Source: an uncultured Flavobacteriales bacterium (GTDB lineage Bacteria; Bacteroidota; Bacteroidia; Flavobacteriales_E; Vicingaceae). Taken from it: DNA of 64,000 bases. Where the stretch lies: positions 1 to 64,000 of the forward strand of contig CAJQON010000003.1 in the NCBI GenBank assembly GCA_905479995.1. The letters run 5' to 3'. Below are positions 10,718 through 64,000 of this stretch, in pieces. Positions within the stretch are counted from its first letter, which is position 1. The number at the start of each line of letters is the position of its first letter. The notes under the pieces were generated by a model that worked only from the letters and a program-made list of their open reading frames with translations, ran no database searches and had not been told where the DNA came from. Both the position numbers and the translations under genes were made by a program.

Positions 10718-11260
10718 TTAAAATGGGGATTTAAATTGATTAAAACTTATTGCTATATTATCTTTATTAGAAATTACTGGAGCATCTATTCCCCAATCAA
10801 TATCCAATTCATTGTCTTTCCAAGACAAACAGTCTTCAGCGTTTTTTTCATAAAAGTTTGAACACTTATAAGAAAACACCGTATTTTCTTCCAATGCTAA
10901 AAAACCATGTGCAAACCCTTCGGGAACATAAAACATTTTACCGTTATTATCTGACAATAAAATAGAATAATGTTGGCCATAAGTTTTCGAGTCCTTTCTA
11001 ATATCAACTGCAACATCAAGTACACTTCCGCTTAAAACCCTAACAAGTTTTGCTTGAGCATATGGCGGTTTTTGAAAATGAAGTCCTCGTAATACGTTTT
11101 TATGGGAAACCGATTGATTGTCTTGAACAAACTTAGTAGATATCCCATTTTTTTCAAATAATTGCTCATTATATGATTCAAAGAAATGACCTCTCTCATC
11201 CGTAAAAACAACTGGTTCAACAACTACTAACCCTTCAATATCTGTCTTTAAAAACCTCAT
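10718..11260 (-). CDS. rfbC: dTDP-4-dehydrorhamnose 3,5-epimerase family protein (RfbC-like)
   Basis: 180 aa, full length for the cupin-fold RmlC family. The catalytic His is in LRGLHFQ (His61), and VLDVAVDIRKDSKTYG and FYVPEGFAHGFLAL are family blocks. It epimerises C3 and C5 of a 4-keto-6-deoxy sugar nucleotide. The start codon overlaps the wzc stop by one base (TAATG), indicating translational coupling. No rfbA, rfbB or rfbD is in the window, so a dTDP-rhamnose product is not proven; the other enzymes may be elsewhere, or the substrate may be a related sugar. Confidence 0.88.
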   Translation of the reverse strand: MRFLKTDIEGLVVVEPVVFTDERGHFFESYNEQLFEKNGISTKFVQDNQSVSHKNVLRGLHFQKPPYAQAKLVRVLSGSVLDVAVDIRKDSKTYGQHYSILLSDNNGKMFYVPEGFAHGFLALEENTVFSYKCSNFYEKNAEDCLSWKDNELDIDWGIDAPVISNKDNIAISFNQFKSPF

Positions 11261-13692
11261 TACCTATTGAATATTTTACTTAACCTACTTTTTTCTACGT
11301 CTGGACCATCATCATAGTAGCCTCCATAACCATAGCCATAACCATAACCATAACCACCACCATAACCATAACCATAACCGCCTCCATAAGATTTACTTCC
11401 AACTTCAACACTATTTAAAATAAGCGATAATTTTTTAATTCCATTATCTAAAACTAATCGATCAACATTTGATACAAAGTATTTTTTTGAATATTCATTT
11501 TTGAAAACATAGATAGGGAAATCTGCTTTTTTCAAAACCTCCATAGCATCAGAAACTAGACCAATTGGTGGATTATCGATAATTACAAAATCATACACCT
11601 GCTTTAATTCCTCAATAATTATATCAAGCTTCCCATTTATAATTAACTCTGATGGATTGGGAGGAACAGGTCCTGAAGTGATAAAGTCCAATCCTTCTTG
11701 CTCACTATTTTTAATACAATCATCAATTTTTGCTTCATCTATAAGCAAAGTACTCATCCCAACATTATTCTCTACACCAAAGCCTAAGTGAATTTTAGGT
11801 TTTCGCATATCTAAATCTAAGATTACTACCTTTTTTCCTGAGAAAGCAACTATTCCTGCAATATTAATGGCACAGAATGTTTTTCCTTCACCAGATATAG
11901 TTGAAGTAACAGCTAATATTTTCTTCCCTGGTTCATTTGATATAAATTGCATATTTGAACGTATGGCACGAAAAGACTCAGCTATAATAGATTTAGGGTT
12001 TTTATTAACAACAAGTTGAGATACAGGTATATTTTTCTTGTATCGTGGTACAATTCCTAAAATAGTTACCTCTGAATATGCCATCCAGATGATGTCGTCA
12101 ATAGATGAAATTGTATTCTTTAGTAAATATATTACTAACAACATTATAAGACTAAGTACCAATCCTGCCATTACTCCAAATAATATGAACAGTTTTTTGT
12201 TTGGATATATTGATAAGGATGGCACTACTGCTTCAGATAAAACTGTATGCTGGGAAACAAAACCTGCATCAGAAATGGAGTATTCTGTTCGTTTTTCCAT
12301 TAAAAGTGTAAAAAACTTTTCGTCAATTGATAGAATACGCTGCAATCTAGCATATTCTAATTCTTGAATAGGAACGCCTAAGAATTCTTTCTCCAAGCTC
12401 TCAACCTTAACAAGTAAGTCATTTCTTTTAGCAATTAACTTATTAGTTGAAGAAGCTATACTTTCGACCAATATTTTTTTCTGTACTTCAATTTTATGGT
12501 CTAGCAATTTAATCGTTTCACTATCTTTTGTAACATTGTACCTCATGTTCTCTTTAATAACTAAAAGCTCTTTAAGGTTTGTTATTAAAGACATAATCCC
12601 TACGGCATAATCTGTACCAGCCAATATTGGAAGTAGATCATATACATCTATATCTTCCGAATCTAGAGAAATTTTCTTAGTTACTTCAGAGAGTACTGAA
12701 ATCTGTAAATCCAAATCAATCAATTCATTTTCAAGCTTATTATTTCTATCAAAATAAACTGTAGATCTATCAATATTTGAAAATTTATTATCTTTTTGAA
12801 AATCTTGAATAGAGTTTTCAGACTTCTTTACTTTGTTATAGTATTTATCTAATTGATCATCTATAAAGCCTAAGGCTTTTTTAGAACTCTTTCTTCTCTC
12901 TTCAATGTCATAAACAATATATTCTTCTGCAACTGCACTAGCTACATCTGCACATTTTTCAGGGTTATTGTCTTGAAAAGAAATGTTTATCGTTTTTGCA
13001 CTCGGATTACTTGAAAAAACAGAGAGTCTATCAATATAAGAATTAGTCAAGTCATCTATATTGTTAAAAACAAAATACATTTCCTTTTCATTAATCAAAA
13101 CATCTTTATCAAAACTCCCTAATTGAATCACTTTAAACTTCGCCTTATTTATAATCACATCCTCACCAAATTTATATTCTCCTTTACTTTTGGTGTTTTG
13201 CATCAGGCTAAATCGGTTATCACCTAAAAATTTGATAAAAAAGACTTTACCGAATAGCGAATGATCAGTATTGGCGTATTCAATCTTTATCGGAGAGGAT
13301 TTATACATTTCATGGTCCAAAATTTCCCCTTTATTAAAGTAGGTAACCTCTAAAGGAAGTCTTTGTAAAGCTCTTCTAAACAAAAGCTTAGACTTCAATA
13401 CTTCTATGTCTTTAGCCAAATCATTAGATTCATGAAAATCATTCATATTCAATACCTGATTAGCAGTATTGACTGACCCTACTTGAAATGTTAAGCTAGA
13501 CTCATATACAGGTTCAGTATACCTAAGGTAAACAAGTACTGAAGAAACAGTTATAGCAATAATAGCAATAAACCAAAGTAAATTTCTCCTTAATAAATGA
13601 AGGAATAAAATTGGATCAGATTCTGTATTAAAATTTGATCTTTTACGTGATTTTTCGTCTTTTATTTTCTGAACTGTAGAACTTTCTTCCAT
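11260..13692 (-). CDS. Wzc-type polysaccharide co-polymerase with tyrosine autokinase domain (first copy)
   Basis: 810 aa. A Wzz-type periplasmic domain lies between membrane segments near 34-52 and 505-527 and contains long coiled-coil helices. A cytoplasmic BY-kinase follows, with Walker A STISGEGKT near 597, VVILDLDMRKP as Walker A', and FVIIDNPPIGLVSDA as Walker B. The C-terminus is a Tyr/Gly cluster (SYGGGYGYGYGGGYGYG region, ~764-794), the usual autophosphorylation tail. Such proteins control chain length and export of capsule or exopolysaccharide with Wza. It starts 9 bases after the wza stop. A related kinase lies at 27927-30341. Confidence 0.93.
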   Translation of the reverse strand: MEESSTVQKIKDEKSRKRSNFNTESDPILFLHLLRRNLLWFIAIIAITVSSVLVYLRYTEPVYESSLTFQVGSVNTANQVLNMNDFHESNDLAKDIEVLKSKLLFRRALQRLPLEVTYFNKGEILDHEMYKSSPIKIEYANTDHSLFGKVFFIKFLGDNRFSLMQNTKSKGEYKFGEDVIINKAKFKVIQLGSFDKDVLINEKEMYFVFNNIDDLTNSYIDRLSVFSSNPSAKTINISFQDNNPEKCADVASAVAEEYIVYDIEERRKSSKKALGFIDDQLDKYYNKVKKSENSIQDFQKDNKFSNIDRSTVYFDRNNKLENELIDLDLQISVLSEVTKKISLDSEDIDVYDLLPILAGTDYAVGIMSLITNLKELLVIKENMRYNVTKDSETIKLLDHKIEVQKKILVESIASSTNKLIAKRNDLLVKVESLEKEFLGVPIQELEYARLQRILSIDEKFFTLLMEKRTEYSISDAGFVSQHTVLSEAVVPSLSIYPNKKLFILFGVMAGLVLSLIMLLVIYLLKNTISSIDDIIWMAYSEVTILGIVPRYKKNIPVSQLVVNKNPKSIIAESFRAIRSNMQFISNEPGKKILAVTSTISGEGKTFCAINIAGIVAFSGKKVVILDLDMRKPKIHLGFGVENNVGMSTLLIDEAKIDDCIKNSEQEGLDFITSGPVPPNPSELIINGKLDIIIEELKQVYDFVIIDNPPIGLVSDAMEVLKKADFPIYVFKNEYSKKYFVSNVDRLVLDNGIKKLSLILNSVEVGSKSYGGGYGYGYGGGYGYGYGYGYGGYYDDGPDVEKSRLSKIFNR

Positions 13693-19988: not shown

Positions 19989-20336
19989 ATGGAAATTCAA
20001 GAAGGAACACCACAAATCAACCAACAATCTTTACCAAATGCTACAGGCGTTTTAGTTTTAGGGATACTGTCTATTGTATTTTGCTTTTGCTATGGCTTTG
20101 TAGGTGCTATATTGGGTATTATTGCAATAGTTTTAGCAGGTAAAGCAAACAAATTATATCAAGCCAATCCAGATTCCTACACGCTTAGTTCATTTAAAAA
20201 CATGAAAGCAGGAAGAATTTGTGGAATTATTGGCTTAAGCTTATCAAGCCTTTATTTAATTTATTTCATTATCGTTATTGCATTTTATGGAACATTACTA
20301 AGCAGTATGCCATGGGAAGAAATGATGAATCAATAA
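19989..20336 (+). CDS. CCC-motif / DUF4190-like membrane protein (first of tandem pair)
   Basis: 115 aa with two or three membrane segments. LPNATGVLVLGILSIVFCFC and YGFVGAILGIIAIVLA flank a Cys-rich turn (CFC), and MKAGRICGIIGLSLSSLYLI forms the next segment. The LPN-A, AGRICGIIG and Cys cluster features fit the Bacteroidota CCC-motif membrane family, whose function is unknown. Eight bases separate its stop from the homologous downstream gene, so the two are a tandem duplication in one transcript. Confidence 0.8.
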   Translation: MEIQEGTPQINQQSLPNATGVLVLGILSIVFCFCYGFVGAILGIIAIVLAGKANKLYQANPDSYTLSSFKNMKAGRICGIIGLSLSSLYLIYFIIVIAFYGTLLSSMPWEEMMNQ

Positions 20337-20344
20337 AAAAAAGT

Positions 20345-20671
20345 ATGGAAAACAATGAAATTGCTGAAAAGCAGGCTTTACCAAATTCTACTACAATTTT
20401 GGTGTTAGGAATTTGCTCTATAGCAACGTGCTGGTGCACCGGATTGGTGGGATTAGGTCTAGGAATAACGGCATTAGTTATGTCAAAAAAAGCTAGAATT
20501 ACAAAGGAAGCTTATCCAGATAGCTTTACAGAAGCTTCATGCAACAACATGAATGCTGGTAAAATTTGTGGAATAATTGGTGTTTCCCTTTCTGCTATAG
20601 CACTTATTTATTTTGTTATTTATGCACTAGTTTTAGGAGTATTTTATTCTTCTGCCAATATGAATTGGTAA
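20345..20671 (+). CDS. CCC-motif / DUF4190-like membrane protein (second of tandem pair)
   Basis: 108 aa. The ATG at 20345 gives a protein aligned end to end with its neighbour: LPNSTTILVLGICSIATCWC against LPNATGVLVLGILSIVFCFC, and MNAGKICGIIGVSLSAIALI against MKAGRICGIIGLSLSSLYLI. The frame is open further upstream to 20219, but that part lies inside the first gene and reads unlike the family. A strong terminator follows directly. Function unknown. Confidence 0.82.
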   Translation: MENNEIAEKQALPNSTTILVLGICSIATCWCTGLVGLGLGITALVMSKKARITKEAYPDSFTEASCNNMNAGKICGIIGVSLSAIALIYFVIYALVLGVFYSSANMNW

Positions 20672-20678
20672 AGTATTT

Positions 20679-20729
20679 TATAGCATAAAAAAAAGTCATG
20701 CATTTTACAGGACTTTTTTTTATGCTATA
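20679..20729. terminator. Bidirectional terminator between convergent genes
   Basis: A perfect 19-bp inverted repeat (20679-20697 and 20711-20729) with A and T tracts inside the stem and a 13-base loop. It can stop both the plus-strand CCC pair and the minus-strand fahA/glyA transcript. Confidence 0.88.
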
Positions 20730-20739
20730 TATTGATCAA

Positions 20740-21996
20740 TTATTTTGAAGGCAACACTTTGGTAGAAACTTCACCAAAACCAACTCTTACGTCATCATTT
20801 TGTGAATACCCCCTCATAATTACAGTATCGTTATCTGCAATAAATTTACGTTCAGAGCCATCTGCCATTTTAACCGATTTGGTTCCTTTCCAACTAATTT
20901 CTAGCATAGAACCATAAGCTGTTTCATCGTTTCCAGAAATAGTTCCAGAAGCCATCATATCTCCAGCATTTATGTCACACCCATTTATAGTATGATGCGC
21001 CAATTGTTGGTTCATATTCCAGTACATGTATTTATAATTAGAGTTTGACACTACTTTCTCTTCAGTTCCTTCAGGTTGAATGGCTACCTCTAAATTAATA
21101 TCAACATGTTTGTTTCCTTCAAATTCTAAGTATTCAAAAACTTTAGGGTCTTGTACTGAACCATTTGTTCTAAAAGGTTCCAATGCATCTAAAGTAACAA
21201 TCCAAGGCGCCATGCTTGATGCAAAGTTCTTAGCCAAGAATGGCCCTAATGGTACGTATTCCCACTTTTGAATGTCTCTGGCACTCCAATCATTAAACAA
21301 GCACATTCCAAAAATATACTCGTCTGCTTCTTTGGTAGAAATTGAATCTCCCAAAGCTTTACCTTGATAGGTAACAAAAGCCATTTCCAATTCAAAATCC
21401 AATAATTTACAAGGACCAAAAACAGGTGGCTCATCATCTTTAGGCTTTTGTTGTCCTTTTGGTCGATGAATAGGTGTACCTGAAACTATAATTGAAGATG
21501 CTCTTCCATGATAACCAACAGGAATATGTTTCCAGTTTGGTAATAATGCATTGTTAGGATCTCTAAACATACAACCTACATTATATGCATGTTGCTCGCT
21601 TGAATAAAAATCGGTGTAATCACCAACTTCTAATGGCATTAACATTTCTACTGCATCAGCATCAATTAAAAGCGCTTTTAATTCTTGTTTATTTTGAGCA
21701 GTTTCATTTTGAGCGTTAAAGATATTAGAAATTTCATTTCTTACATCTCGAGTTACTTGTTTGCCTAACAACATGAAGTCATTTAATCGAGAAGTGTTAA
21801 ACACTTCATCATCAATGTTAAAATGACCTAATTTCGCTACTCCATATAGGTTCACGACAGTATTTCCAATTCTTGTAGCTACAAAAACATTCCCATTGTG
21901 CTTTACTACACCAAAAGGTATATTTTGTATAGAGAAATCAGAATTATCAGGTATTTCTATCCAGCTTTTTATTGTTATATCATTTGCTCTTATCAT
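20740..21996 (-). CDS. fahA: Fumarylacetoacetase
   Basis: 418 aa, full length. This enzyme hydrolyses fumarylacetoacetate to fumarate and acetoacetate in the last step of tyrosine degradation. Family blocks are clear: N-terminal IQNIPFGVVKHNG, the active-site GYHGRASSIIVSGTPI, the metal-binding LLDFELEMAFV and FNDWSARDIQKWEYVPLGP, and the C-terminal ASGTISGNDETAYGSMLE. It starts ten bases after the glyA stop, so the two are probably co-transcribed. No other tyrosine-degradation genes are in the window. Confidence 0.96.
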   Translation of the reverse strand: MIRANDITIKSWIEIPDNSDFSIQNIPFGVVKHNGNVFVATRIGNTVVNLYGVAKLGHFNIDDEVFNTSRLNDFMLLGKQVTRDVRNEISNIFNAQNETAQNKQELKALLIDADAVEMLMPLEVGDYTDFYSSEQHAYNVGCMFRDPNNALLPNWKHIPVGYHGRASSIIVSGTPIHRPKGQQKPKDDEPPVFGPCKLLDFELEMAFVTYQGKALGDSISTKEADEYIFGMCLFNDWSARDIQKWEYVPLGPFLAKNFASSMAPWIVTLDALEPFRTNGSVQDPKVFEYLEFEGNKHVDINLEVAIQPEGTEEKVVSNSNYKYMYWNMNQQLAHHTINGCDINAGDMMASGTISGNDETAYGSMLEISWKGTKSVKMADGSERKFIADNDTVIMRGYSQNDDVRVGFGEVSTKVLPSK

Positions 21997-22006
21997 TCTA
22001 TTCAGT

Positions 22007-23299
22007 TTAATTCATTACTAATTCACCCATTTCAAACAATGGAAATTTACCCATCAATTCATTTACTTCAGTTCTCACTTCAGAGATCACAGCTTCGTTG
22101 TCTTTATTGGTAATTACCTTATCCATTAATTCAACAATCTTAACAATATCAGTTTCTTTTACTCCTCTTGTAGTAATCGCTGCAGTTCCAACTCTAATAC
22201 CAGAAGTTACAAAAGGTGATTTATCATCAAATGGAACCATATTTTTATTTACGGTAATATCTGCTTCTACTAAAAGATTCTCTGCTTCTTTTCCGGTAAT
22301 GTCTTTACTTCTTAAATCTATTAACATACAATGGTTTTCTGTGCCTCCAGAAATAACACCATACCCTCTTTTTACTAACTCATCTGCCATTACTTTGGCG
22401 TTCTTCATTAACTGAACACAGTAGTTCATAAAATCATCAGACAATGCTTCTTTAAAAGCAACAGCCTTAGCTGCTATAACGTGTTCTAAAGGGCCTCCTT
22501 GAGTTCCTGGAAAAACAGCAGCATCTAATAGTTGACTCATCATTTTAACATTTCCTTTTGGAGTTGTTAATCCCCAAGGGTTTTCAAAGTCTTTTCCCAT
22601 CATAATCATCCCTCCTCTTGGTCCTCTTAATGTTTTATGGGTTGTAGTTGTAACAACATGACAATGTGGAAGAGGGTCGTTTAATAAACCTCTTGCAATA
22701 AGTCCAGCAGGATGCGCAATATCAGCCATTAGTAAGGCTCCAACTTTATCAGCTATATTTCTCATTTTTTCGTAATCCCAATCTCTACTGTAAGCTGATG
22801 CTCCAGCAATAATTAATTGAGGCTTCTCGGTTAGTGCTGTTTCTTCTATAATACTATAATCTATTAAACCTGTTTCTTGGTTAACACCATAAAAACTAGT
22901 TTCGTATAATTTTCCAGAGAAGTTAACAGGTGATCCGTGCGTTAAATGTCCACCGTGTGAGAGATCAAAACCTAAAATCTTTTCTCCAGGTTTTAAGATA
23001 GCCAACATTACTGCTGCATTGGCTTGAGAGCCAGAATGCGGCTGAACATTTACCCACTCAGCATTAAATAATTCTTTAGCTCTATCTCTAGCAATGTCTT
23101 CAATTTCATCTACAACTTCACACCCACCGTAATATCTTTTGTAAGGCAAACCTTCTGCATACTTATTTGTTAGTATACTTCCCATGGCTTTAATTACGTT
23201 TTCACTTACATAATTCTCAGAAGCTATGAGCTCTACTCCTTCTTTTTGACGGTTGTATTCATCATTTATTAATTCGAAAATTTCGTTATCGTTATTCAT
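22007..23299 (-). CDS. glyA: Serine hydroxymethyltransferase
   Basis: 430 aa. This PLP enzyme interconverts serine and glycine and feeds one-carbon units to tetrahydrofolate. The N-terminal [30 protein letters not shown] and the PLP-lysine segment [16 protein letters not shown] are diagnostic. I chose the ATG at 23299 ([10 protein letters not shown]); the frame continues to an upstream ATG at 23329, but that start would overlap the putative -7 element at 23327-23334 and adds residues not typical of the family. It probably forms an operon with fahA. Confidence 0.96.
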
Positions 23300-23326
23300 T
23301 TCAATACGTGTAAGATTAGAAAAAAA

Positions 23327-23334
23327 CAAAGGTA
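23327..23334 (-). promoter_or_regulatory. -7 promoter element for glyA
   Basis: TACCTTTG on the minus strand matches TANNTTTG and lies 27 bases before the chosen glyA ATG. There is no clear TTG at -33. It argues against the longer glyA start. Confidence 0.35.
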
Positions 23335-23356
23335 GGACAAATCCATTTTATTCCAT

Positions 23357-23391
23357 AAAAAAAAGGCTGAAGATTATTCAGCCTTTTTTTT
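23357..23391 (-). terminator. Terminator overlapping the 3' end of the mini exosortase-substrate gene
   Basis: A-tract with GGCTGAA, a short loop, TTCAGCC and a T-tract. The last codons of the minus-strand gene (Lys-Lys-Lys-Ala-Glu) form the upstream arm and its TAA (23374-23376) sits in the loop region. Confidence 0.85.
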
Positions 23392-23613
23392 ATCTTTTGA
23401 AATATCATGAATTTTTTTTCCTCCGTAAGCAACCCCTGCTATAAGCAAGAAGCTAATCCCACCATCTATTGGTACACAAGGAGGAGGCCAACAAGGAGGT
23501 CCACCACCGCCACCACCGCGAGGACCGGGAGGGCCAGCTGCAAAAGCATTATTAACAATGCTCATCGCAACAATAAAGATAGTAGTAAATATAAATCGTT
23601 TCAAGTTTTGCAT
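23374..23613 (-). CDS. 79-residue secreted protein with PID-CTERM-like exosortase sorting signal
   Basis: Residues 1-25 are a signal peptide ending NAFAA. The mature part is only about 20 residues, Gly/Pro-rich with two Cys (GPPGPRGGGGGGPPCWPPPC). Then comes a tripartite sorting tail: PID at 48-50, a hydrophobic helix (GGISFLLIAGVAYG) and a basic end starting KK at 66. This is the layout of PEP-CTERM-like exosortase substrates, and PID is the form I recall from Bacteroidota. The exosortase at 27284-27820 is the obvious processing enzyme. A full promoter lies upstream and a terminator overlaps its end, so it is its own transcription unit. Role of the mature peptide is unknown. Confidence 0.75.
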   Translation of the reverse strand: MQNLKRFIFTTIFIVAMSIVNNAFAAGPPGPRGGGGGGPPCWPPPCVPIDGGISFLLIAGVAYGGKKIHDISKDKKKAE

Positions 23614-23630
23614 AGGTATATCAACGGTGG

Positions 23631-23660
23631 CAAATTTAGGATTATTTTTCTTTTATACAA
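23631..23660 (-). promoter_or_regulatory. Consensus Bacteroidota promoter for the mini substrate gene
   Basis: On the minus strand TTG (23658-23660) is followed by exactly 19 bases and TAAATTTG (23631-23638), an exact match to the TTG-N19-TANNTTTG pattern of the primary sigma factor in Bacteroidota. It is 17 bases upstream of the ATG. Confidence 0.7.
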
Positions 23661-23690
23661 CTAATACGTTTTAGCTAAATAAAAGGTTGA

Positions 23691-26600
23691 TTAATAATTA
23701 AATTTTTTCGTTACGATTCCTGATTGTGATTCAACTCTAATCATCATAATTCCTTTAGGGAACTTACTGTTAGCTATCTCCAACATACCTTCTCCGTTAT
23801 AAGGCATGTCCTCAACAACCTTTTGCCCAAGAGCATTAAAAACTGAAATTATATAATTATCAGGTGTATTAAAGTTAAATACTGTAGTTCCGATAGAATT
23901 TTTATATATCTCAATGTTATCAGATAAAATAGCTCCTGCGCCATTTCCAATATTAGAAAGCCTCAATTGAAATCTTTCTGACTCATCATTAGCATCAATC
24001 TCAAACTTCATTCCTTCTAAAGCAATATTTTTAAGGTCAAATACTCTTCCCGTATGCTTAGCTTTTAATTCTATAAATTCAAAATCTCCACTTAATTCTT
24101 GAAAATTTTCTGCTAGAATAGTATATTTTCCAGTAATACCAACATTAACTTTTACCGGAATAATTACCTCTTCACTATAATTAAATGAATTAATCGCTAA
24201 CTCTTTATTAGAGTTATTCGCAAAACTTGTAATACTTGGTGCTTCAGTTAATGGACTCTTCAAAAATGAACCATCAAACTCATCGCGTTCTTCTAAGGCT
24301 AAATTATTCATTCTAAGTAATAATTCATGTGAGTATGAATTAACATCACTATTCACAATTAATTTTACTTCAGTAAAATCAATAAGCTCTGTAGTTCTAT
24401 AGAATGTACTAGATCCTGTACTATTTTTCGCTGATTCCGTAAAGATCAAAGTACCAGCTCCAACACTTTCAACCCAAAACCCCTGTTGTGGAGGTATAGT
24501 TCCTGAAGTCCTTGCAGAATAGTTACCATTGTTTGTATTCCATATATAATAAGTATTATTCAATGTTGGCTTTGTTAAAGAACCCCATTGCACCCATGCT
24601 TGATATGGATTACCCACTAAGTTAAAATCGTTTGCCACAGAAACTGCTACGTTACCAAAATTTGGTGTCCCGTAGATATCAATAGTTTTTGCATTGAAGG
24701 TAGTAAAATCATCTCCTAACCAAATTTCAAGACCTTCACCAGGAGTCATTACAAAATTAGTATCGGTTACCTCCGCATATGCTTGCGTACCTGCATCAAA
24801 TTCATAAACAGAATAAAAATCACCAGGGTTTCCAACTCGACCATCAATCCCATTAACATCAGACATAAAAAGCTCAGTAACAGTATTAGTATTATCTGAA
24901 TCCCATTGTCCCAAAGTTGCACTTGTTACAGGCATACTTAAATCTCCCCAGTTAGCATTTCTTGTCGTGAAATTTCTCTCAAATATGAAATTACCAAAAA
25001 ATCCAAAACCACCACTTTCTAATATTACCGCTGTTCTCGAAGCTGTTGATTTAAAAGTAAAAACAGCACCGGTATTAATCAATGTTCCTGTAGTTACCTT
25101 AACACTATTTGAAACTTCAAAATCTCCGCTCGCAAGATTAACATCATTAACAGATTCTATATATAGTTTGTTAAAATCGATTACTGTGGCCGAGTTATTA
25201 TTTACAAATTGACTGGTTAAAGCACCTCCGTTAAATGTAATAACTTTATGAGTAGCAACACCAGAAGCACTTACAGTATAATCTCCTGCGACATTAAAGC
25301 CTGGGTTATCATCAGTATCTAAATTTCCATCAACCACAATATCATTTATAGATTCTATCGCTCTAGTTGTTACCTTATCTCCAGCACTAATCGTTACATT
25401 ATCAACTGAACCTGGAATACAGTTACAACTCCAAGTGGAAGCATCATCCCAAAAACCATTTTTTACAGAAAAAATAGAGCTAGGCACACTTGATGCAATA
25501 GTATAGTAGTCACCATCACTTAAAGTAACTCCTGTAAACGTGGCAATACCGCCAACATCAACAACAGGACCATAATCTACAACTCCACCATCGTTAAAAA
25601 CACCATTACCTGTCTCTACCATCAAATAATAAGACCCTGAAGCTAATGGTAATGAAGATACATCAACTGCTACCGTAACTGTTCCTGGTGAACCTGTCAC
25701 TCCAGCCCTCCACTTTCTTCTAACTCTAGATCCTCCAGAAATTGTACCTGAAACATCATTATTGGTTAAAGCTATTGAACTTCCATTATGCCCAGAAAGA
25801 ATATAATCACCAGCACCAAGCGTAGATGCATTACTAATTTCAATAATTCCTGTACCTTGAGCTGTAGTATTGTTCCCATCCACTTCTTCTCCTATTCCAA
25901 ACAATTCCTCTCCTTCAGTCGCATCATAAGCATATAAATCTGTTGCTATAACAATACCATGCTTGGTAGATAAATAATTTTCGACTATTCTTCTTTCTGC
26001 ACTATTTAACACTTTAGAATAGCTAATAATTTCTGCTATATCTCCATTAAATTTATTACTACCATTTGTTGCAGAACCTACTCTATTTTTAAAATTTCCT
26101 GTTGCTGTATTTCCGGCATTTGTTGTTGTTCCCAAGTCATTACCATCTCTAAAAGCCTGTATTTCTTGTGCTCCAACTCCATCCCAAGTGCTCGTCCATA
26201 TTTGAGTATTGGTGGAATGCGCATCATCAATTTTAATTGAACTTGCAGCACTATTTTTTACCCAACTTCTCATTAATCCCCCACTTGTTCTAAAGGTTTG
26301 CAATAATGAGTTATGCTCAGAATAAGCAGATGCCCATAAAATTCCATAGTGATTCGCACTAGTACTTTCAAAAACAATAAATTGAGTTTGAGTATTTGTA
26401 TTAAGGCCTGCAATTCCAGAATTTTTCATGAAATCATTTGCTCCATCAAACCTCAAAATCGGGGTAGTATAATTGTACCATTTTGGTTGCAAACTAGTTG
26501 AACCTTGTGTGAAATCATTTCCATTTCCTGATTTATCAGACCAAGTCGAAATACTAATACCATTAGAATTACCTATAAAATCTGCGGCATCAAGCCATAG

Positions 26601-26696
26601 AGGGTTATTTGAAGAACTTCCTACTCCAGCTGGCCCATCTTGCCCGAAGGATGCAGTAGCTATTAAAATTAACAAGGAAAATAATATTGTTTTCAT
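23691..26696 (-). CDS. Large secreted protein with LamG-like domain and T9SS sorting domain
   Basis: 1001 aa. A signal peptide (ending ATASFGQ) is followed by a LamG/concanavalin-like region (~30-250: NPLWLDAADF, STWSDKSGNGNDF, AERRIVENYLSTKHGI). A DUF8202-like segment follows (ELFGIGEEVDGNN, GDYILSGHNGS). The central part (~405-560) holds FWDDASTWSCNCIPGSVDNV, a beta-solenoid-like start common in surface proteins. The last ~80 residues form a type A T9SS sorting domain (ISVFNALGQKVVED, KFPKGIMMIRV). It is probably a surface adhesin or matrix protein. It sits between the exosortase genes and the mini substrate, but itself uses the T9SS signal. Confidence 0.82.
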   Translation of the reverse strand: MKTILFSLLILIATASFGQDGPAGVGSSSNNPLWLDAADFIGNSNGISISTWSDKSGNGNDFTQGSTSLQPKWYNYTTPILRFDGANDFMKNSGIAGLNTNTQTQFIVFESTSANHYGILWASAYSEHNSLLQTFRTSGGLMRSWVKNSAASSIKIDDAHSTNTQIWTSTWDGVGAQEIQAFRDGNDLGTTTNAGNTATGNFKNRVGSATNGSNKFNGDIAEIISYSKVLNSAERRIVENYLSTKHGIVIATDLYAYDATEGEELFGIGEEVDGNNTTAQGTGIIEISNASTLGAGDYILSGHNGSSIALTNNDVSGTISGGSRVRRKWRAGVTGSPGTVTVAVDVSSLPLASGSYYLMVETGNGVFNDGGVVDYGPVVDVGGIATFTGVTLSDGDYYTIASSVPSSIFSVKNGFWDDASTWSCNCIPGSVDNVTISAGDKVTTRAIESINDIVVDGNLDTDDNPGFNVAGDYTVSASGVATHKVITFNGGALTSQFVNNNSATVIDFNKLYIESVNDVNLASGDFEVSNSVKVTTGTLINTGAVFTFKSTASRTAVILESGGFGFFGNFIFERNFTTRNANWGDLSMPVTSATLGQWDSDNTNTVTELFMSDVNGIDGRVGNPGDFYSVYEFDAGTQAYAEVTDTNFVMTPGEGLEIWLGDDFTTFNAKTIDIYGTPNFGNVAVSVANDFNLVGNPYQAWVQWGSLTKPTLNNTYYIWNTNNGNYSARTSGTIPPQQGFWVESVGAGTLIFTESAKNSTGSSTFYRTTELIDFTEVKLIVNSDVNSYSHELLLRMNNLALEERDEFDGSFLKSPLTEAPSITSFANNSNKELAINSFNYSEEVIIPVKVNVGITGKYTILAENFQELSGDFEFIELKAKHTGRVFDLKNIALEGMKFEIDANDESERFQLRLSNIGNGAGAILSDNIEIYKNSIGTTVFNFNTPDNYIISVFNALGQKVVEDMPYNGEGMLEIANSKFPKGIMMIRVESQSGIVTKKFNY

Positions 26697-26801
26697 AACA
26701 AAAAAATTAGGTTCTGTAATAAGAACGTAAATCTAATAAAAAAGGTTCGTTTAAGAAAAATTAAGTTTTTCCCAATTATGCGGCTATTAATTTGTTCTTA
26801 C

Positions 26802-27287
26802 CTAATTGGACAGTGTTTTATCTACTTCATATTTTTCATAAAAATAAAAAACAACAAAAAGAATGAGAATTGTTAGTGGAGATTGTGCTAAACCCATGAA
26901 AAATCTAGCAATAGGGTAAATAGAATTTACTTCACCAATAACATATCCCATTGAAATAAAAATAAGAGACACAGAAAAGAAAATCCCATAGATTAAAAGA
27001 GTATATGCATACAATCGTTTCTGAGTAAAGTATATTTTAATCAACCAAAGTAACATCCCCATAAATGCTAATGAAAATAAAACTGTTAAAGCCCATTTCA
27101 ACCCTACCAAATAATCAATTGAACAATCATATATAAAATTTGGTGGAGTTACATATGATCTATTATAGGGAAAATCATATTGATACAAAACACTATTTAT
27201 TACTAAGAATATAGTTTCTCTAACATAGCCCATTAAAAAGATAAGAAGGAATAACAAAAATAATATGAACCTATTACCTTTCCTCAC
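26802..27287 (-). CDS. Exosortase-associated integral membrane protein
   Basis: About 161 aa with four predicted membrane helices: RFILFLLFLLIFLMGYV at the N-terminus, then LKWALTVLFSLAFMGMLLWL, YTLLIYGIFFSVSLIFIS, and SPLTILILFVVFYFY. An extracytoplasmic loop holds RETIFLVINSVLYQYD and SYVTPPNF. Position directly after an exosortase and this layout fit the XrtX/XrtF-associated membrane proteins of Bacteroidota. The frame extends back to an ATG at 27332, but I chose the GTG at 27287, which overlaps the exosortase stop (GTGA) and puts a helix at the N-terminus. Biochemical role unknown. Confidence 0.7.
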   Translation of the reverse strand: MRKGNRFILFLLFLLIFLMGYVRETIFLVINSVLYQYDFPYNRSYVTPPNFIYDCSIDYLVGLKWALTVLFSLAFMGMLLWLIKIYFTQKRLYAYTLLIYGIFFSVSLIFISMGYVIGEVNSIYPIARFFMGLAQSPLTILILFVVFYFYEKYEVDKTLSN

Positions 27288-27820
27288 TTTTCCTTTGAAA
27301 TACCAGAATATTTTTTCACCCACATAACCCACATTAAAAAGATGCAGAAATAGACAAAAATTGTAAAAGTGTATTTATGGTTGAATTGAAGACTGTCTGG
27401 ATAATAAACTACGACCAATGCCAAGGCAACTAACCTCACTATATTTAAACAGTGAATTACTAATAATCCTATTGGAATAAAAACAAGCTTATTTTTTATT
27501 TTTCCAGGAAATGCAATAATAAATCCAGCAAATAATGCAAAAAGATCCATTCCGTTACATGGGGCCCCTATTAAAACTCCATGAGTACCGTCCACACCAA
27601 CAGCATCAGCATATGAAAAGGTATCGAAACCAAACAGATTTAGAACATTTTGTGTTGAACTTACTAAGTGGTTAATTAAAAAATGATCTACAAAACCATC
27701 CTCTAACAGCCACTTTTCGTATAGAACGTACCAAACAATATAAATTAAGCCCGCTTTTAATATAAAACTGGCCAAAAATTTATCTTGGGGACCTATATGT
27801 TTGAATATATTTTTAATCAA
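27284..27820 (-). CDS. Exosortase/archaeosortase-family transpeptidase
   Basis: 178 aa with about five or six membrane helices. The three residues proposed as catalytic are present in order: Cys88 in GAPCNGMDL, Arg129 in NIVRLVAL and His148 in FNHKYTF. Exosortases cut the C-terminal PEP-CTERM-like tail of exported proteins at the inner membrane, and are genetically tied to exopolysaccharide production. Here it is divergent from the polysaccharide operon with 106 bases between, and 3.7 kb from a short protein bearing a PID tail. The subfamily (XrtX or similar) is my guess. Confidence 0.85.
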   Translation of the reverse strand: MIKNIFKHIGPQDKFLASFILKAGLIYIVWYVLYEKWLLEDGFVDHFLINHLVSSTQNVLNLFGFDTFSYADAVGVDGTHGVLIGAPCNGMDLFALFAGFIIAFPGKIKNKLVFIPIGLLVIHCLNIVRLVALALVVVYYPDSLQFNHKYTFTIFVYFCIFLMWVMWVKKYSGISKEK

Positions 27821-27899
27821 TGAGAATAAGAAAAAACGAAGTTATTAATATTATTTAAAGCATTAGTAAAAGTTATTTATATAAATACGAATAAAAAGC

Positions 27900-27907
27900 T
27901 ATTTTTG
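27900..27907 (+). promoter_or_regulatory. -7 element for the polysaccharide operon
   Basis: TATTTTTG matches TANNTTTG, 19 bases before the ATG at 27927. No TTG is present at -33, so only half a promoter is seen. Confidence 0.3.
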
Positions 27908-27926
27908 TTGGCTGTAGTAAAAAATT

Positions 27927-30341
27927 ATGGAGAAAAAGAATCAACAAAACATAATTGAAAATTTTGATTTTAAGGCTTTTGGCTCTAGGATAATTAAATA
28001 TTGGTACTTGTTTGCAATTTGCTTAATTATTGCAGGCGTTGCTAGTTTTTATAAGGTAAGGTACAGCGTTTCTGAATATAGTACTTATGGTAAGTTAATT
28101 TTAAAGGATGAATACTCCTCTTGGAGGCAAGAGTCTTTTATTAAAGGAATGGAACTTGTAAGCACACAAAACAGACTGTCCAATGAGGTCGGGATATTGA
28201 ATTCGTATTCTCTAAATAGAAAGGTTTTAGACAAATTAGATTTTGATGTTTTTTATTACAGTATAGGAAATATTAAAACAACTGAGCTTTATAAAGACTC
28301 ACCGTTTAGGGTAGTTATAGATACAACTGAAGAATTTGCAAGCTATCCCAGTTTTCATTTAAAATTTATTGATAAAAAGAAATTCCATGTCTCTAGGAAT
28401 CCTGAAAAGATTGAAGAAGGAGATATAAAACAATTCGGTAAACCCTTTAAATTAAGAGGTAAAAAAATTACTATTAATATTACTGAACACTATGCAAAAG
28501 GAAGAACCGAAAAGAATATATTTAAATTTAAAATTAATGATTTAAATTCTCTGGCTAAGGTATACCAGTTAAGTGTGTTTGCCGAGACTGAACCATCTGA
28601 GTCGTCAATTCTAAAACTGACAATGCACGGGGTAAGGATTGACAAACAAATTGATTATCTGAACGAAATAATGAACAGCTACATTTTAGATGGTTTAGAA
28701 GAAAATAATCAAACCACTACAAGTACTTTAAAATTTATAAATAATCAGTTAAATGAAGTTGCTGACACTTTAGTATTGGTTGAAATGAAGTTAGAAGATT
28801 TTAAAAAATCTATCAATACTGAAAAATTAGAGATTAATACAACCAAACTTATTCCAAATTCGACCGAGTTGGAAAGGCAATTAATTGAAGCAAAATTTAA
28901 CATAAAGTATTTTAAGAATACACTTGACTACTTAGAAAAAACTTCAGATCATGAACAAGTTTTAATCCCAACGATTTTGGGAGTTACTGTCCAGGACCCA
29001 ATTCATCGCACCATATCTGAACTTTCAGAATTATATTCTAAAAAAGCATCATTAAAGTTCTCTATTGAAGATAGTAGTCTAACTACTTCAAAGTTAATTC
29101 AACAGATTAAAATTAAACGAGAAATTCTAATTGAAAATTTAAGAGCAAGATTAAGTAAGAATGAATTTCAAATTGAACAACTAAATGAACAACTCCAACT
29201 GAATGAATCTAAGTTAGGCCAGCAACCAAATGCTGAGTCTGAGTATGTTAGAATTCAACGATTATATAAACTTAATAATGATTTTTATAATTATTTACTA
29301 GAAAAAAGAGGTGAAGCATCCCTAGCACAGGCATCCAACGTTCCTAAGGCAAAAATAATTGAAAATGCAAGTGAATATACTGTATCATACACAGGGCCTT
29401 TCCCTAAAAACATTTACCTTTTAAATTTTGGTATAGCATTATTTCTTCCCTTATTGTTTACATTATTAAAATTTCTAATAAATTCAAAAATAATTGAAAA
29501 ATCAGACATCGAAGCTCAAACTGACATTCCAATTATTGGTAGCATTGGTCACATAAAAAATACTGGAAACTTAGTTCTTGTGAATAAGCCTAAATCAATT
29601 GTTGCTGAATCTTTTAGAGCAATTAGGACAAATATAAATTACCTAACAAAACAGAAAAAAACATTCTGCATCTTAATTACCTCCTCTATTAGTGGTGAGG
29701 GTAAAACCTTTACCAGTATTAACCTAGCTCTAGCATATGCCATTTCGGGTAAAAAGACATTACTTATTGGTGCAGATTTAAGGAAGCCTAAAATCTTTAA
29801 TGATTTTAAATTAAATAATACTATAGGCCTTACTAATTTCTTAATTGGTGGAAACACATTTGATGAAGTAGTTCAAAACACGAGTACTGATAACCTTGAC
29901 CTTATTTCTTCTGGTCCAACACCACCAAACCCATCTGAGTTAATAGACTCAGAAAAAATGAAAGAATTTATGGAACAAGCAAAATCACTCTACGATATTA
30001 TTATAATTGATTCGCCACCGGTTGGCTTGGTAACTGACGCCATGATATTGGCTAAGTTCTCGGATGTGAACCTATACTTAGTAAGGCAAAACTATACCTT
30101 AAAAAATCACTTAAGTTTAATAAATGATTTATTCGTAAATGATAAGATCACAGATTTAGGAATAATTGTTAATGATATAAAAGAACAAAGTTTAGGCTAC
30201 GGAAAGTATAGTTACGGCTACGGATATGGCTACGGATATGGCTACGGATATGGTTATGGTTATGGTTATGGTTATGGTTACGGGTATTATGGTGATACTC
30301 AGAAAAAAAAATCCATCCTCTCGGTATTTAAACGGACATAA
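27927..30341 (+). CDS. Wzc-type polysaccharide co-polymerase with tyrosine autokinase domain (second copy)
   Basis: 804 aa. First membrane helix near 25-42 (YWYLFAICLIIAGVASFY), a long periplasmic Wzz-like part with coiled coils (~260-460), a second helix near 495-515, then a BY-kinase. The kinase has Walker A SSISGEGKT near 587, LLIGADLRKP as Walker A', and IIIIDSPPVGLVTDA as Walker B. The C-terminal ~35 residues are almost pure Tyr-Gly repeats, the phosphorylation tail. It opens the plus-strand polysaccharide operon and shares only moderate similarity with the copy at 11260-13692 outside the kinase core. No wza homologue accompanies it. Confidence 0.92.
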   Translation: MEKKNQQNIIENFDFKAFGSRIIKYWYLFAICLIIAGVASFYKVRYSVSEYSTYGKLILKDEYSSWRQESFIKGMELVSTQNRLSNEVGILNSYSLNRKVLDKLDFDVFYYSIGNIKTTELYKDSPFRVVIDTTEEFASYPSFHLKFIDKKKFHVSRNPEKIEEGDIKQFGKPFKLRGKKITINITEHYAKGRTEKNIFKFKINDLNSLAKVYQLSVFAETEPSESSILKLTMHGVRIDKQIDYLNEIMNSYILDGLEENNQTTTSTLKFINNQLNEVADTLVLVEMKLEDFKKSINTEKLEINTTKLIPNSTELERQLIEAKFNIKYFKNTLDYLEKTSDHEQVLIPTILGVTVQDPIHRTISELSELYSKKASLKFSIEDSSLTTSKLIQQIKIKREILIENLRARLSKNEFQIEQLNEQLQLNESKLGQQPNAESEYVRIQRLYKLNNDFYNYLLEKRGEASLAQASNVPKAKIIENASEYTVSYTGPFPKNIYLLNFGIALFLPLLFTLLKFLINSKIIEKSDIEAQTDIPIIGSIGHIKNTGNLVLVNKPKSIVAESFRAIRTNINYLTKQKKTFCILITSSISGEGKTFTSINLALAYAISGKKTLLIGADLRKPKIFNDFKLNNTIGLTNFLIGGNTFDEVVQNTSTDNLDLISSGPTPPNPSELIDSEKMKEFMEQAKSLYDIIIIDSPPVGLVTDAMILAKFSDVNLYLVRQNYTLKNHLSLINDLFVNDKITDLGIIVNDIKEQSLGYGKYSYGYGYGYGYGYGYGYGYGYGYGYGYYGDTQKKKSILSVFKRT
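30216..30287 (+). repeat. In-frame hexanucleotide tandem repeat coding (Tyr-Gly)n
   Basis: Three exact copies of ggctacggatat are followed by four ggttat and two near copies. All units are six bases or twelve, so gain or loss changes the number of Tyr-Gly pairs without a frameshift. It lies in the phosphorylation tail of the second Wzc. Confidence 0.9.
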
Positions 30342-30375
30342 CATTTTTTATCTAATTTGGAAACTTTGCTAAGTA

Positions 30376-31836
30376 TTGACTAATTTAAAATCAAAAAGTA
30401 TTAATGCCTTCATATGGGACTTTTTAGGTAAAATTTCCAACCAGGCAATCTCTTTCTTAGTTTCTATTATCTTAGCAAGAATTCTTCTACCAGATGAATT
30501 CGGTCTTATTGCCATAATTAATGTGATTTTTATGTTTGCCAACATCTTCATGGATGTTGGACTTGGAGCTTCATTGATTCAAAGGAAAAGATTATTACCG
30601 ATACACTTTTCGTCTGTATTTTATTTCAACATTACAGTAGGGCTAATCCTTACCATCATTACTTTGTTTGTAGCGAAATATATTGCAGAATTTTATCAGA
30701 TTCCTGAGTTAGAAAACTTAGCAAAAACAATGTCACTTTCATTCGTTATTAGTTCATTTGGAATTGTCCAAAATGTTAAATTAAAAAAACAATTAAATTT
30801 TAAAAAAATAACTAGTTTACAAATAGTTGGAGTTGTAATTAGTGGTGGAATAGGTATAATAATGGCTAAAAACGGATTTGGAGTTTGGAGTTTATTAACT
30901 CAGATTTTATCAAATCGTTTCATTTATACGCTTTTGGTTTGGATAACTGTGGATTGGACTCCAGGATTTAATTTCTCTTTAAAAGCACTAAAACAATTGT
31001 GGGGTTTTGGATTTAAAATATTTTTAGCTAATTTTTTAAACATCCTATTTAATCAATTAGATGTAATAATTATTGGTAAAATATTCCCTGTAAGTAGTTT
31101 AGGGTTTCTGCAACGAGGGAAATCACTTACTCAAATGGTGTACAAATTAACATCAACAAGTTTGTCACAAGTATTATTTCCAGTTTTTAGTAGTATTCAA
31201 GATGAAACAGCTCGATTAAAATCTATTCTAAATAGAGCCACTCATCTACTAAGTCTCGTAGTATTTGTAATTACGGGAGCTTTATATCTGTGTGCAGATG
31301 AAATTATTATTATTTTGTTTACGAAAAAATGGTACGAGTCTATTGAATATTTCAAACTTCTCCTATTAAGCGGTTTTGTTATGCCATTTAATTCATTGTT
31401 TATAAATATTATAAGCAGTAGAGGTAACTCTACAAACTATCTCAAACTTAATATGATAAAAAAGATACCTAAAGGACTAGTACTTTGCTTCGGGTTTTAT
31501 TTTGGAATTACAGGCTTTTTATATGGCTTAATATTATCCTCCATCATTAACACATTTATTAATATACTGTTTGTAAATAGAGAATTAGGCACAAATTACT
31601 GGCTGTTACTAAAACCAATAACCACCAACCTAGCAACATCATCATTATTAGTTTTAGGAATAACGAGTTTGATAAACAGACTAGATTTCGAGAACCTATA
31701 CCTGCTATTACTGATAAAATTTTTTACCTTTATTGTATCTTATTCTATATTGGCGATTCTATTCAAATTTGATGGACTAAAAACTATTCAATTAACAATT
31801 TCTGACAGAAAGAAACGAACACCAACTAATGAGTAG
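30376..31836 (+). CDS. Wzx-like oligosaccharide flippase (MOP/polysaccharide transporter superfamily)
   Basis: 486 aa with about 12-14 membrane helices. It starts with the family-typical SINAFIWDFLGKISNQAISF and LVSIILARILLPDEFGLIAI, and contains IDVIIIGKIFPVSSLGFLQR-type loop sequence (QLDVIIIGKIF). It flips undecaprenyl-linked repeat units to the periplasm. The start is a TTG at 30376, 34 bases after the kinase gene; no nearby ATG gives a complete first helix. It pairs functionally with the Wzy-like protein at 42945-44264. Confidence 0.9.
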   Translation: MTNLKSKSINAFIWDFLGKISNQAISFLVSIILARILLPDEFGLIAIINVIFMFANIFMDVGLGASLIQRKRLLPIHFSSVFYFNITVGLILTIITLFVAKYIAEFYQIPELENLAKTMSLSFVISSFGIVQNVKLKKQLNFKKITSLQIVGVVISGGIGIIMAKNGFGVWSLLTQILSNRFIYTLLVWITVDWTPGFNFSLKALKQLWGFGFKIFLANFLNILFNQLDVIIIGKIFPVSSLGFLQRGKSLTQMVYKLTSTSLSQVLFPVFSSIQDETARLKSILNRATHLLSLVVFVITGALYLCADEIIIILFTKKWYESIEYFKLLLLSGFVMPFNSLFINIISSRGNSTNYLKLNMIKKIPKGLVLCFGFYFGITGFLYGLILSSIINTFINILFVNRELGTNYWLLLKPITTNLATSSLLVLGITSLINRLDFENLYLLLLIKFFTFIVSYSILAILFKFDGLKTIQLTISDRKKRTPTNE

Positions 31837-60488: not shown

Positions 60489-61502
60489 TTAAAACTTAGC
60501 ACAAGGAACAAAAAAGCGCTTACCGCGTCTCTTTTTTTGTTTACTTGCTATTTCGTAAATAATAGAAATTTCATGAGATCCTCCAGAATTAAATGCTAAT
60601 CTGGAAATTGTCACATCGTAACTATAACCTAAGTTTAGGTTGTATTCTGTAAACTTATACCCCAACAAAACTGCTAATGCATCATTGTTTAATGTATTTT
60701 CATAGGACTTTATACCAGGTAAACCTCGGTACCAAAAACCGAAAACAAAAGGGTCTCTTGTGTAATACATCCCTAAGTCCAATTGATCAAATTTTTGCTG
60801 AGATTTATAATGAAAGGCCAAATTAAAGTATGAAGTATTCAGGCTCTTTCTTCCTCCTTCAGACAAGTCAAACTTATACCCACCATGCGCTGAAAACTTC
60901 ATATACAAAGGACTCTCTCCGTTTATTAAACTTTGGTTGGGTTCATTCATATGGCTAAAAGATACACCTGCCCAATATGTTTCGGAAAAAACCAAAAGAC
61001 CAGCTGTAAGATCCATATAATTAACATTGTTAATTTCAATATTATCGGCAGTAGTTGAAGCACCTCCACGAGCAAGTTGATCGTTAAATATGAGATTTGA
61101 AAAATCAACTCCTCTGGTTACATAATTAAATTTAATACCAGGCTGAATGAATATTTTTTTGTCAATTTGAAAATGATAAGAATAAAGCAAACCTAATTCT
61201 GTTGTTCCCATTTTTCCAGTCCCAGCTTGTTCTTTAGCAAACAATAAACCTAGTCCACTATTAAACTCCGACAAATTGTAATCATAAGCAAAGGCATAAT
61301 TTACAAAATGACCGGGTATTGCACTCCATTGATTTCTGTAGCTACTGGCAAACCGATGCTCCATGGTAGCCCCAGCAAATCCGGGGTTAAGGTAAAGTGG
61401 GGCGGCATTAAATTGGGTAAACTGCATGTCCTGGCAATTGCTTTCAATAATTAAAGAAAGCATACTTATTAGGAGTATGGCTTTCAGTTTATTTATCCCC
61501 AC
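60489..61502 (-). CDS. PorP/SprF-family type IX secretion outer-membrane protein
   Basis: 337 aa. MQFTQFNAAPLYLNPGFAG after the signal peptide is the family mark, along with ASSYRNQWSAIPGHFVNYAF and GLGLLFAKEQAGTGKMGTTE. The rest is a beta-barrel; in gliding bacteria this family helps secrete or anchor a partner protein with a gliding-type C-terminal domain. The gene starts with GTG at 61502 and overlaps the previous gene by 14 bases. The large PKD protein upstream is the likely partner. Confidence 0.93.
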   Translation of the reverse strand: MGINKLKAILLISMLSLIIESNCQDMQFTQFNAAPLYLNPGFAGATMEHRFASSYRNQWSAIPGHFVNYAFAYDYNLSEFNSGLGLLFAKEQAGTGKMGTTELGLLYSYHFQIDKKIFIQPGIKFNYVTRGVDFSNLIFNDQLARGGASTTADNIEINNVNYMDLTAGLLVFSETYWAGVSFSHMNEPNQSLINGESPLYMKFSAHGGYKFDLSEGGRKSLNTSYFNLAFHYKSQQKFDQLDLGMYYTRDPFVFGFWYRGLPGIKSYENTLNNDALAVLLGYKFTEYNLNLGYSYDVTISRLAFNSGGSHEISIIYEIASKQKKRRGKRFFVPCAKF

Positions 61503-63033: not shown

Positions 63034-63038
63034 AACCT

Positions 63039-64000
63039 TTATCTTAGTAACGTTATATCTCCTAAAAACGACTCTGACGTTCCGTTTATATAGGTTACTT
63101 TTATTTTATATACGTAAACATCTTGTTTACTTAATTCATTTCTGTAATAACCATCCCATCCAATGTTTACATCTGTACTAATAAACAGTAACTCACCCCA
63201 TTTATTAAAAATGTTCAACTCATATTCTTCTGCTCCAATAATTATTGGATGAAACACATCGTTGTCGGCACTATTCGGATCATAAACCCCACCACTAGAT
63301 CCATTAGGACTAGGTGTAAAGGCATTTGGAATTTTAATTCCTCCCTCCGACAAAGCCTCAACTCCTGCCGACAGTATAAATGTATCAATACAATTGTTTA
63401 CAGTTGTAGCAATTAACATAATGTCATAAACACCTACTTGTGTATAAAAGTGTTGCGGATATTCATCAATGGAAGTGTTGCCATCGCCAAAATCCCAAAA
63501 ATATGACGAGGCAAAATTGGATAGGTTAAAAAATGCTACAGGTTCATTGGGTATAAATACCGTTGTTGGACTAACCGTGAAGAAAGCACTTGGCATTTGG
63601 TATACCTCAATAATTAATTGTTGTACTTGAGTATCTTGCCCTCCAGATCCAAATACTGTTAAAGTAACAGTGTAAACTCCAGGGTTAAAATAAGTGTAAC
63701 TCGGTTCAAATTGTGTTGAAGTACCTCCATCTCCAAAATCCCAAAGATAAGTATCGGCAAATTGAGAGTTGTTTGTAAAATCAACAGCAAGTGGACGACA
63801 ACCTTGAGCCGGACCAGTAAAATCAGCTACCGGAATAGGAGCTACAATTTCTATATTATTTACAGCTGTATCCGCGCAATTGACATTACTTACAATTAAA
63901 GTAATTGGATAAATTCCCCAAGTAGCATACACATGAGCCAATGGATTTTGATTGACATCCAAAGGTGTTCCATCTCCAAAATTCCATGAATATTGCCAAG
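63039..64000 (-). CDS. PKD-repeat surface protein with gliding-motility-associated C-terminal domain (partial)
   Basis: The minus-strand frame is open to the right edge; the TTG at 63962 is internal. At least three PKD-type repeats are visible (WNFGDGTP at the edge, YLWDFGDGGTSTQFEPSYTY, YFWDFGDGNTSIDEYPQHFY). The last ~95 residues match the gliding-motility-associated, type B T9SS domain: IPNAFTPSPNGSSGG, then YELNIFNKWGELLFIS and GWDGYYRN. It is 5 bases upstream of the TPR/PD40 gene. Such proteins are usually very large, so most lies outside the window. Confidence 0.92.
   Translation of the reverse strand, partial: WQYSWNFGDGTPLDVNQNPLAHVYATWGIYPITLIVSNVNCADTAVNNIEIVAPIPVADFTGPAQGCRPLAVDFTNNSQFADTYLWDFGDGGTSTQFEPSYTYFNPGVYTVTLTVFGSGGQDTQVQQLIIEVYQMPSAFFTVSPTTVFIPNEPVAFFNLSNFASSYFWDFGDGNTSIDEYPQHFYTQVGVYDIMLIATTVNNCIDTFILSAGVEALSEGGIKIPNAFTPSPNGSSGGVYDPNSADNDVFHPIIIGAEEYELNIFNKWGELLFISTDVNIGWDGYYRNELSKQDVYVYKIKVTYINGTSESFLGDITLLR

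Follow-up and report, generated by a model that had tools for sequence, protein, structure and literature searches.

The locus analysed here raises the question of what a Bacteroidota exosortase does when its single predicted substrate is a protein of only 79 residues. It lies in the window, the whole stretch of 64,000 nucleotides from an uncultured Flavobacteriales bacterium of the Vicingaceae. The interval 23374–27820 is composed of four genes, all on the minus strand, which encode a mini PID-CTERM protein, a 1001-residue T9SS cargo, a membrane partner protein and the exosortase XrtX. The first-pass annotation had placed the exosortase, the partner and the mini protein correctly but omitted the 1001-residue open reading frame (23691–26696), and this T9SS type A cargo is the key to the locus. 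Its description of an exosortase system with a mini substrate stands, whereas the tie to the upstream T9SS adhesin gene had gone unseen. We interpret the locus as an exosortase X system with one predicted substrate, the mini PID-CTERM protein, which would be dedicated to the RemA-like T9SS adhesin encoded upstream, and assign this reading a probability of roughly 0.6. Two surface-protein export systems would then seem to cooperate on one adhesin, and the two major surface-sorting routes of the phylum may meet on one product. The pairing of cargo and mini protein makes the purpose and substrates of Bacteroidota exosortases a testable question.

The xrtX gene (27284–27820, minus strand) begins with a TTG codon and encodes a protein of 178 residues, which matches the exosortase X model NF046081 with 207.6 bits (cut-off 170) and the XrtF model TIGR04128 with 90.3 bits (cut-off 90). 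The residues Cys88, Arg129 and His148, already pointed out in the first-pass annotation, are conserved among homologues: across 26 aligned XrtX proteins, Cys88 and Arg129 never vary and His148 is retained in at least 90%. The genome contains a cognate PID-CTERM protein, with one match over the cut-off. The nearest XrtX is 71% identical and comes from a metagenome-assembled genome of Vicingus serpentipes; no solved structural relative of XrtX was found. The membrane partner (26802–27332, minus strand) overlaps the end of xrtX and reaches 61.3 bits against NF046082, below the cut-off of 75, and may be classed as a divergent member of that family at best. Its homologue adjoins xrtX in all of the closest relatives (L187–L194, 42–47% identity). 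NCBI already lists XrtX, PID-CTERM and the partner under family names (NF046081, NF046080 and NF046082), and the triad is not new. The window locus shares with the NCBIfam exosortase X/PID-CTERM system its gene set, with exosortase and tail over the curated cut-offs, and differs in the low-scoring partner and in the tie to a RemA-like cargo.

The mini protein (23374–23613, minus strand) scores 45.5 bits against the PID_CTERM model NF046080 (cut-off 26). It begins with a 25-residue signal peptide (MQNLKRFIFTTIFIVAMSIVNNAFA), followed by a predicted mature peptide of about 22 residues (AGPPGPRGGGGGGPPCWPPPCV, 23473–23538) that carries a conserved Cys pair. The PID-CTERM sorting signal (23407–23475, residues 47–69 in the NF046080 match) contains PIDGG and a hydrophobic stretch, and is followed by the basic tail KDKKKAE. 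The NF046080 match and the KKK tail bear out the earlier description of a tiny secreted protein with a PID motif, a hydrophobic segment and a basic tail, and the predicted mature length agrees with the estimate of about 20 residues of Gly, Pro and two Cys. A profile search of the source genome detected this PID-CTERM gene as the only one. Its small size had been regarded as a peculiarity, but among 138 listed PID-CTERM places over the NF046080 cut-off in 296 genomes of the phylum-level group, the median open frame is 79.5 residues; mini substrates are the norm for the family, and size is rejected as a special feature. In the 171 genes with a guessable signal-peptide end, the part before PID is rich in Pro (28%) and Gly (16%) and has a median length of 14 residues. 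The motif CWPP(P/SA/ST)C before PID is common to the close relatives of the window protein, while the Cys residues are absent in most other clades. The mature part of the window protein contains no Ser, Thr, Asn or Lys that could bear a sugar. O-glycosylation of this peptide is rejected because Ser and Thr are missing, a double absence found in only 32 of the 171 minis. No mini gene was found on plasmids. In Hymenobacter relatives, PID tails are also found on large proteins, one of them VIT-like by eye (L287) and others on open frames of about 960–1008 residues (G305, G309, G315 and G318). PID is thus a portable signal that is not limited to minis.

PID-CTERM proteins and exosortases co-occur almost perfectly. 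All 48 PID genomes contain an exosortase match (E ≤ 1e-3), compared with 43 of the 248 others; the Fisher value of 3e-30 for the 296 genomes overstates the evidence because the genomes are mutually related, and the PID genomes span many families. Two observations would have refuted the first-pass annotation, namely PID homologues in genomes free of exosortases and loss of the PID motif and helix in homologues. Neither is observed, since none of the 48 PID genomes lacks an exosortase and motif and helix are kept in more than 100 homologues. The converse check, that the tail accompanies the exosortase, holds for 39 of the 40 genomes whose XrtX is strong (at least 165 bits). Another 24 XrtX genomes mostly lack PID in the stretch around xrtX; 18 of them carry a PID gene over the cut-off somewhere. 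The mini gene immediately precedes xrtX in 40 loci. An apparent absence of PID in the near relative Vicingus serpentipes is rejected as a true loss, as the contig ends inside a mini gene located behind the orthologous cargo. Comparative genomics strongly supports the prediction that the mini protein is a substrate of XrtX.

The cargo (23691–26696, minus strand) carries a T9SS type A sorting domain at residues 930–999 (23700–23909), which matches TIGR04183 with 24.9 bits (cut-off 23); against Pfam PF18962 it reaches 24.8 bits, under the cut-off of 27. Ahead of this tail lies a conserved module (residues 561–930, 23907–25016). An iterated profile of the C-terminal part of the cargo detected the module, about 350 residues and mostly full length, in 143 of the 156 upstream neighbours that share the strand of their PID gene. 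The regions outside the module vary among cargos and include G8, PKD, NHL, SprB repeats, cadherin-like and Ig-like segments. A profile built from 13 cargo modules, with most of the tail excluded, matches RemA (E 1.7e-31) and RemZ (E 1.9e-26) of Flavobacterium johnsoniae (PDB 8gl6 and 8gl8), in each case in the stretch that immediately precedes the protein's sorting tail. The window cargo sequence alone yields neither RemA nor RemZ nor any other match in the PDB, so that the link depends on the profile. By virtue of this homologous pre-tail module the cargo is classed as a RemA/RemZ-like adhesin, and its role in gliding or as a lectin is only predicted. The AlphaFold model of the module has moderate confidence (pLDDT 66), and it gave no fold match in the PDB. 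The module occurs in 99 of the 296 genomes, among them 47 of the 48 with PID and 75 of the 91 with an exosortase. It also occurs in 24 of 205 genomes without an XrtX-like exosortase match, indicating that it is distributed more widely than the system.

The association between mini and cargo genes extends beyond the window. With PID genes identified by the PID profile alone, regardless of xrtX context, a T9SS type A tail is present on 91 of 107 distinct upstream neighbours, and downstream on at most 6 of 96, where it is not among the families listed. Homologues of the 1001-residue cargo gene immediately precede PID genes in Vicingaceae, in relatives of Hymenobacter, Pontibacter and Rufibacter, and in locus L190, where the pair stays together on the opposite strand from xrtX at a distance of about 4.5 kb or more. 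The eight genomes searched contain 18–150 T9SS tails each, from which we estimate a chance adjacency of a few per cent. The source genome has about 140 such tails but only a single module gene, which lies next to its only PID gene. All 20 PID genes of four other genomes (G139, G143, G163 and G191) follow a module gene. Of the 44 module genes in these genomes, 20 are paired with a PID gene and more than half are not, which means that some cargos do without a mini protein. Cargo and mini identities within genomes are correlated (rho 0.23, 107 pairs; 2 of 1000 permutations as high). On the cargo tree, partner status needs 5 changes, compared with 13.5 in shuffles; one gene scored as lacking PID (L325) is the same as one scored with PID (L138), and the number of changes is therefore probably 4.

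These comparative data strongly support the mini gene and the RemA-like cargo as a predicted evolutionary unit, which looks like a cassette of a RemA-like T9SS adhesin and a cognate mini exosortase substrate. At the level of single genes, this class of mini substrates goes with one RemA/RemZ-related T9SS adhesin family, and it is likely that the mini protein is the dedicated partner of the cargo upstream of it.

A sequence of four steps can be proposed for the pair. The mini protein would be exported by Sec, signal peptidase would leave the Gly/Pro-rich peptide of about 22 residues with its two Cys, and the hydrophobic stretch would keep the protein in the inner membrane. XrtX would then cut near PID and link the new C-terminus to an envelope compound, in keeping with the exosortase theory (Haft 2006 and 2012, in the summary given in PMC7468200), which holds that cleavage occurs near the motif and that the C-terminus is transferred to a compound. 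The acceptor may be a lipid or a glycan supplied by the polysaccharide pathway encoded nearby. We consider export and XrtX processing very probable. The cargo would pass the outer membrane through the T9SS by means of its own tail. Finally, the processed peptide may contact its own adhesin at the conserved module ahead of the tail and help in surface anchoring or assembly; a module that stays constant among variable heads would suit a base in contact with an equally invariant partner. We offer this final step, with the peptide as anchor or assembly partner, tentatively. The general form of the idea is equally speculative: RemA-like adhesins of Bacteroidota and related groups may widely use a split anchor, in which a separate gene supplies a peptide of 10–30 residues that, once processed by the exosortase, holds the T9SS adhesin at the surface or assembles it there.

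The genes next to xrtX allow another role for the peptide. The first-pass annotation had noted that the exosortase genes face away from a polysaccharide operon, and this operon indeed starts with a divergent gene for a Wzc-like polysaccharide co-polymerase/tyrosine kinase (27927–30341, plus strand; TIGR01007, 183 bits). The window has a second Wzc-like kinase at 11260–13692 (minus strand); both end in long (Gly-Tyr)n tails, which are perhaps autophosphorylation sites. The peptide could be a small carrier or primer that receives an envelope polymer from XrtX, with the adhesin binding the polymer. In line with this, xrtX has a Wzc homologue as its head-to-head neighbour in about 22 of 80 related loci, Wza-like polysaccharide export proteins account for 9 of 73 scanned xrtX neighbours, and RemA is, according to reference 28 in PMC10994853, a lectin that moves on the cell surface. 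The recurrence of the head-to-head arrangement supports the suggested polysaccharide link for this clade, but the link is clade-limited, and the majority of PID genes are distant from xrtX, with no polysaccharide genes seen beside them. We regard the carrier role as doubtful, though it is hard to separate from an anchor by genomics alone. The matrix-anchored peptide proposed earlier is possible.

Adjacency may also come about without joint action. The mini protein could be a general XrtX substrate whose gene came to lie behind adhesin genes through shared regulation or cassette spread, and conserved adjacency can reflect co-expression instead of contact. The gap of 77 nt between the cargo stop and the mini start contains a putative Bacteroidota-type promoter, TTG-N19-TAAATTTG (23631–23660, minus strand), which ends 18 nt before the mini start codon, so the mini gene may be expressed apart from the cargo. 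The pattern has 10 matches on both strands of the whole window, and such a promoter is rejected as a general rule, being found in 5 of 116 regions (0.7 expected). Module cargos without minis exist, and of the 40 minis directly before xrtX only 13 have a module cargo upstream and 27 do not. Set against this, the 20 minis of the four genomes and the only mini of the source genome all follow one cargo family among some 60–140 T9SS tails per genome, and cargo and mini co-vary, with few changes of partner status on the tree. We therefore consider mere neighbourhood unlikely. At the other end of the gene, a terminator-like hairpin with a T run (23357–23391, minus strand) overlaps the mini stop codon, and its core folds at -10.0 kcal/mol. 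It is absent from the output of a generic terminator scanner, probably because the stem runs into A/T runs. An Rfam search of 20000–31000 gave no match.

The small mature part would also suit a secreted signal, with XrtX releasing a short Pro/Gly peptide which, as a pheromone or regulator, would control how adhesin and polysaccharide genes are expressed and would be encoded next to the genes it targets. Mature peptides are near-identical within clades (for example QPGLPSAPSQAP), but many genomes encode several near-identical copies, with one following each adhesin gene, a pattern not expected of a signal. Moreover, no receptor or regulator family is prominent among the upstream or downstream neighbours, leaving the regulator mentioned in the first-pass annotation without support, and exosortases are associated with surface sorting. 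A signalling role is accordingly improbable. Least plausible is an unprocessed peptide whose tail is a plain transmembrane anchor with XrtX uninvolved, for although cleavage of the mini protein by XrtX is a prediction, this reading conflicts with the near-perfect co-occurrence across the 296 genomes and with the joint absence of PID and exosortase in seven members of family f24 that retain the cargo module.

The preferred reading, a mini exosortase substrate dedicated to a RemA-like adhesin, can be compared with known systems. The coupling of XrtX/PID to a RemA-like T9SS cargo is absent from NCBIfam model names and from the freely accessible literature searched, and the term PID-CTERM was not found in that literature. 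The available passages of PMC7468200 and PMC10936215 do not describe a cargo–mini cassette. The exosortase A/PEP-CTERM system (Haft 2006, 2012; cited in PMC10936215) likewise combines a motif, a hydrophobic stretch and a basic tail, with the exosortase near polysaccharide genes; the window system differs in having PID instead of PEP, nearly all mini substrates and the T9SS cargo tie. A related exosortase with a membrane partner is XrtF of F. johnsoniae. According to PMC10936215, this bacterium depends on xrtF and the adjacent gene to colonise surfaces and form biofilm, and that study leaves the XrtF substrates to future research. In XrtF-like genomes, mini PID-like genes adjoin riboflavin synthase and do not lie behind a cargo gene. 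Three such genes (L298 near 3010, L299 near 2988 and L300:3016-3235) encode small, Pro-rich signal-peptide proteins with a PID-like tail, which are candidate XrtF substrates. RemA, a gliding adhesin, and RemZ are T9SS type A substrates with the homologous module before the type A tail; the parts of the literature available make no mention of a mini partner of either.

The source genome harbors a second exosortase system on contig C2 near 105662 (L006:11-2385), where exosortase N (341.7 bits) adjoins an XrtN-system VIT-domain protein with a PEP-type tail. Variant pairs are found in other genomes. On the minus strand of L333, from a genome without PID over the cut-off, a mini gene with IPLTG replacing PIDGG is located directly behind a 1055-residue cargo that has no clear T9SS type A tail and ends in a dockerin-like (D-C-D-G) sequence. 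In L301 (7175-10498), a PISG mini gene directly follows a 1014-residue frame, about 5 kb from a diverged XrtX (109.8 bits).

A T9SS cargo with a dedicated neighbour product is also found in SprB/SprF, where a type B cargo is paired with a PorP/SprF-like partner encoded by the neighbouring gene. In that case an outer-membrane protein acts as the partner, and the cargo ends in a type B tail. The window may contain a set of this kind at 60489–63962 (minus strand), where a cluster resembles, by eye, a large PKD-rich surface protein with an OmpA/PD40-like protein and a PorP/SprF-like protein, the classic type B T9SS pairing.
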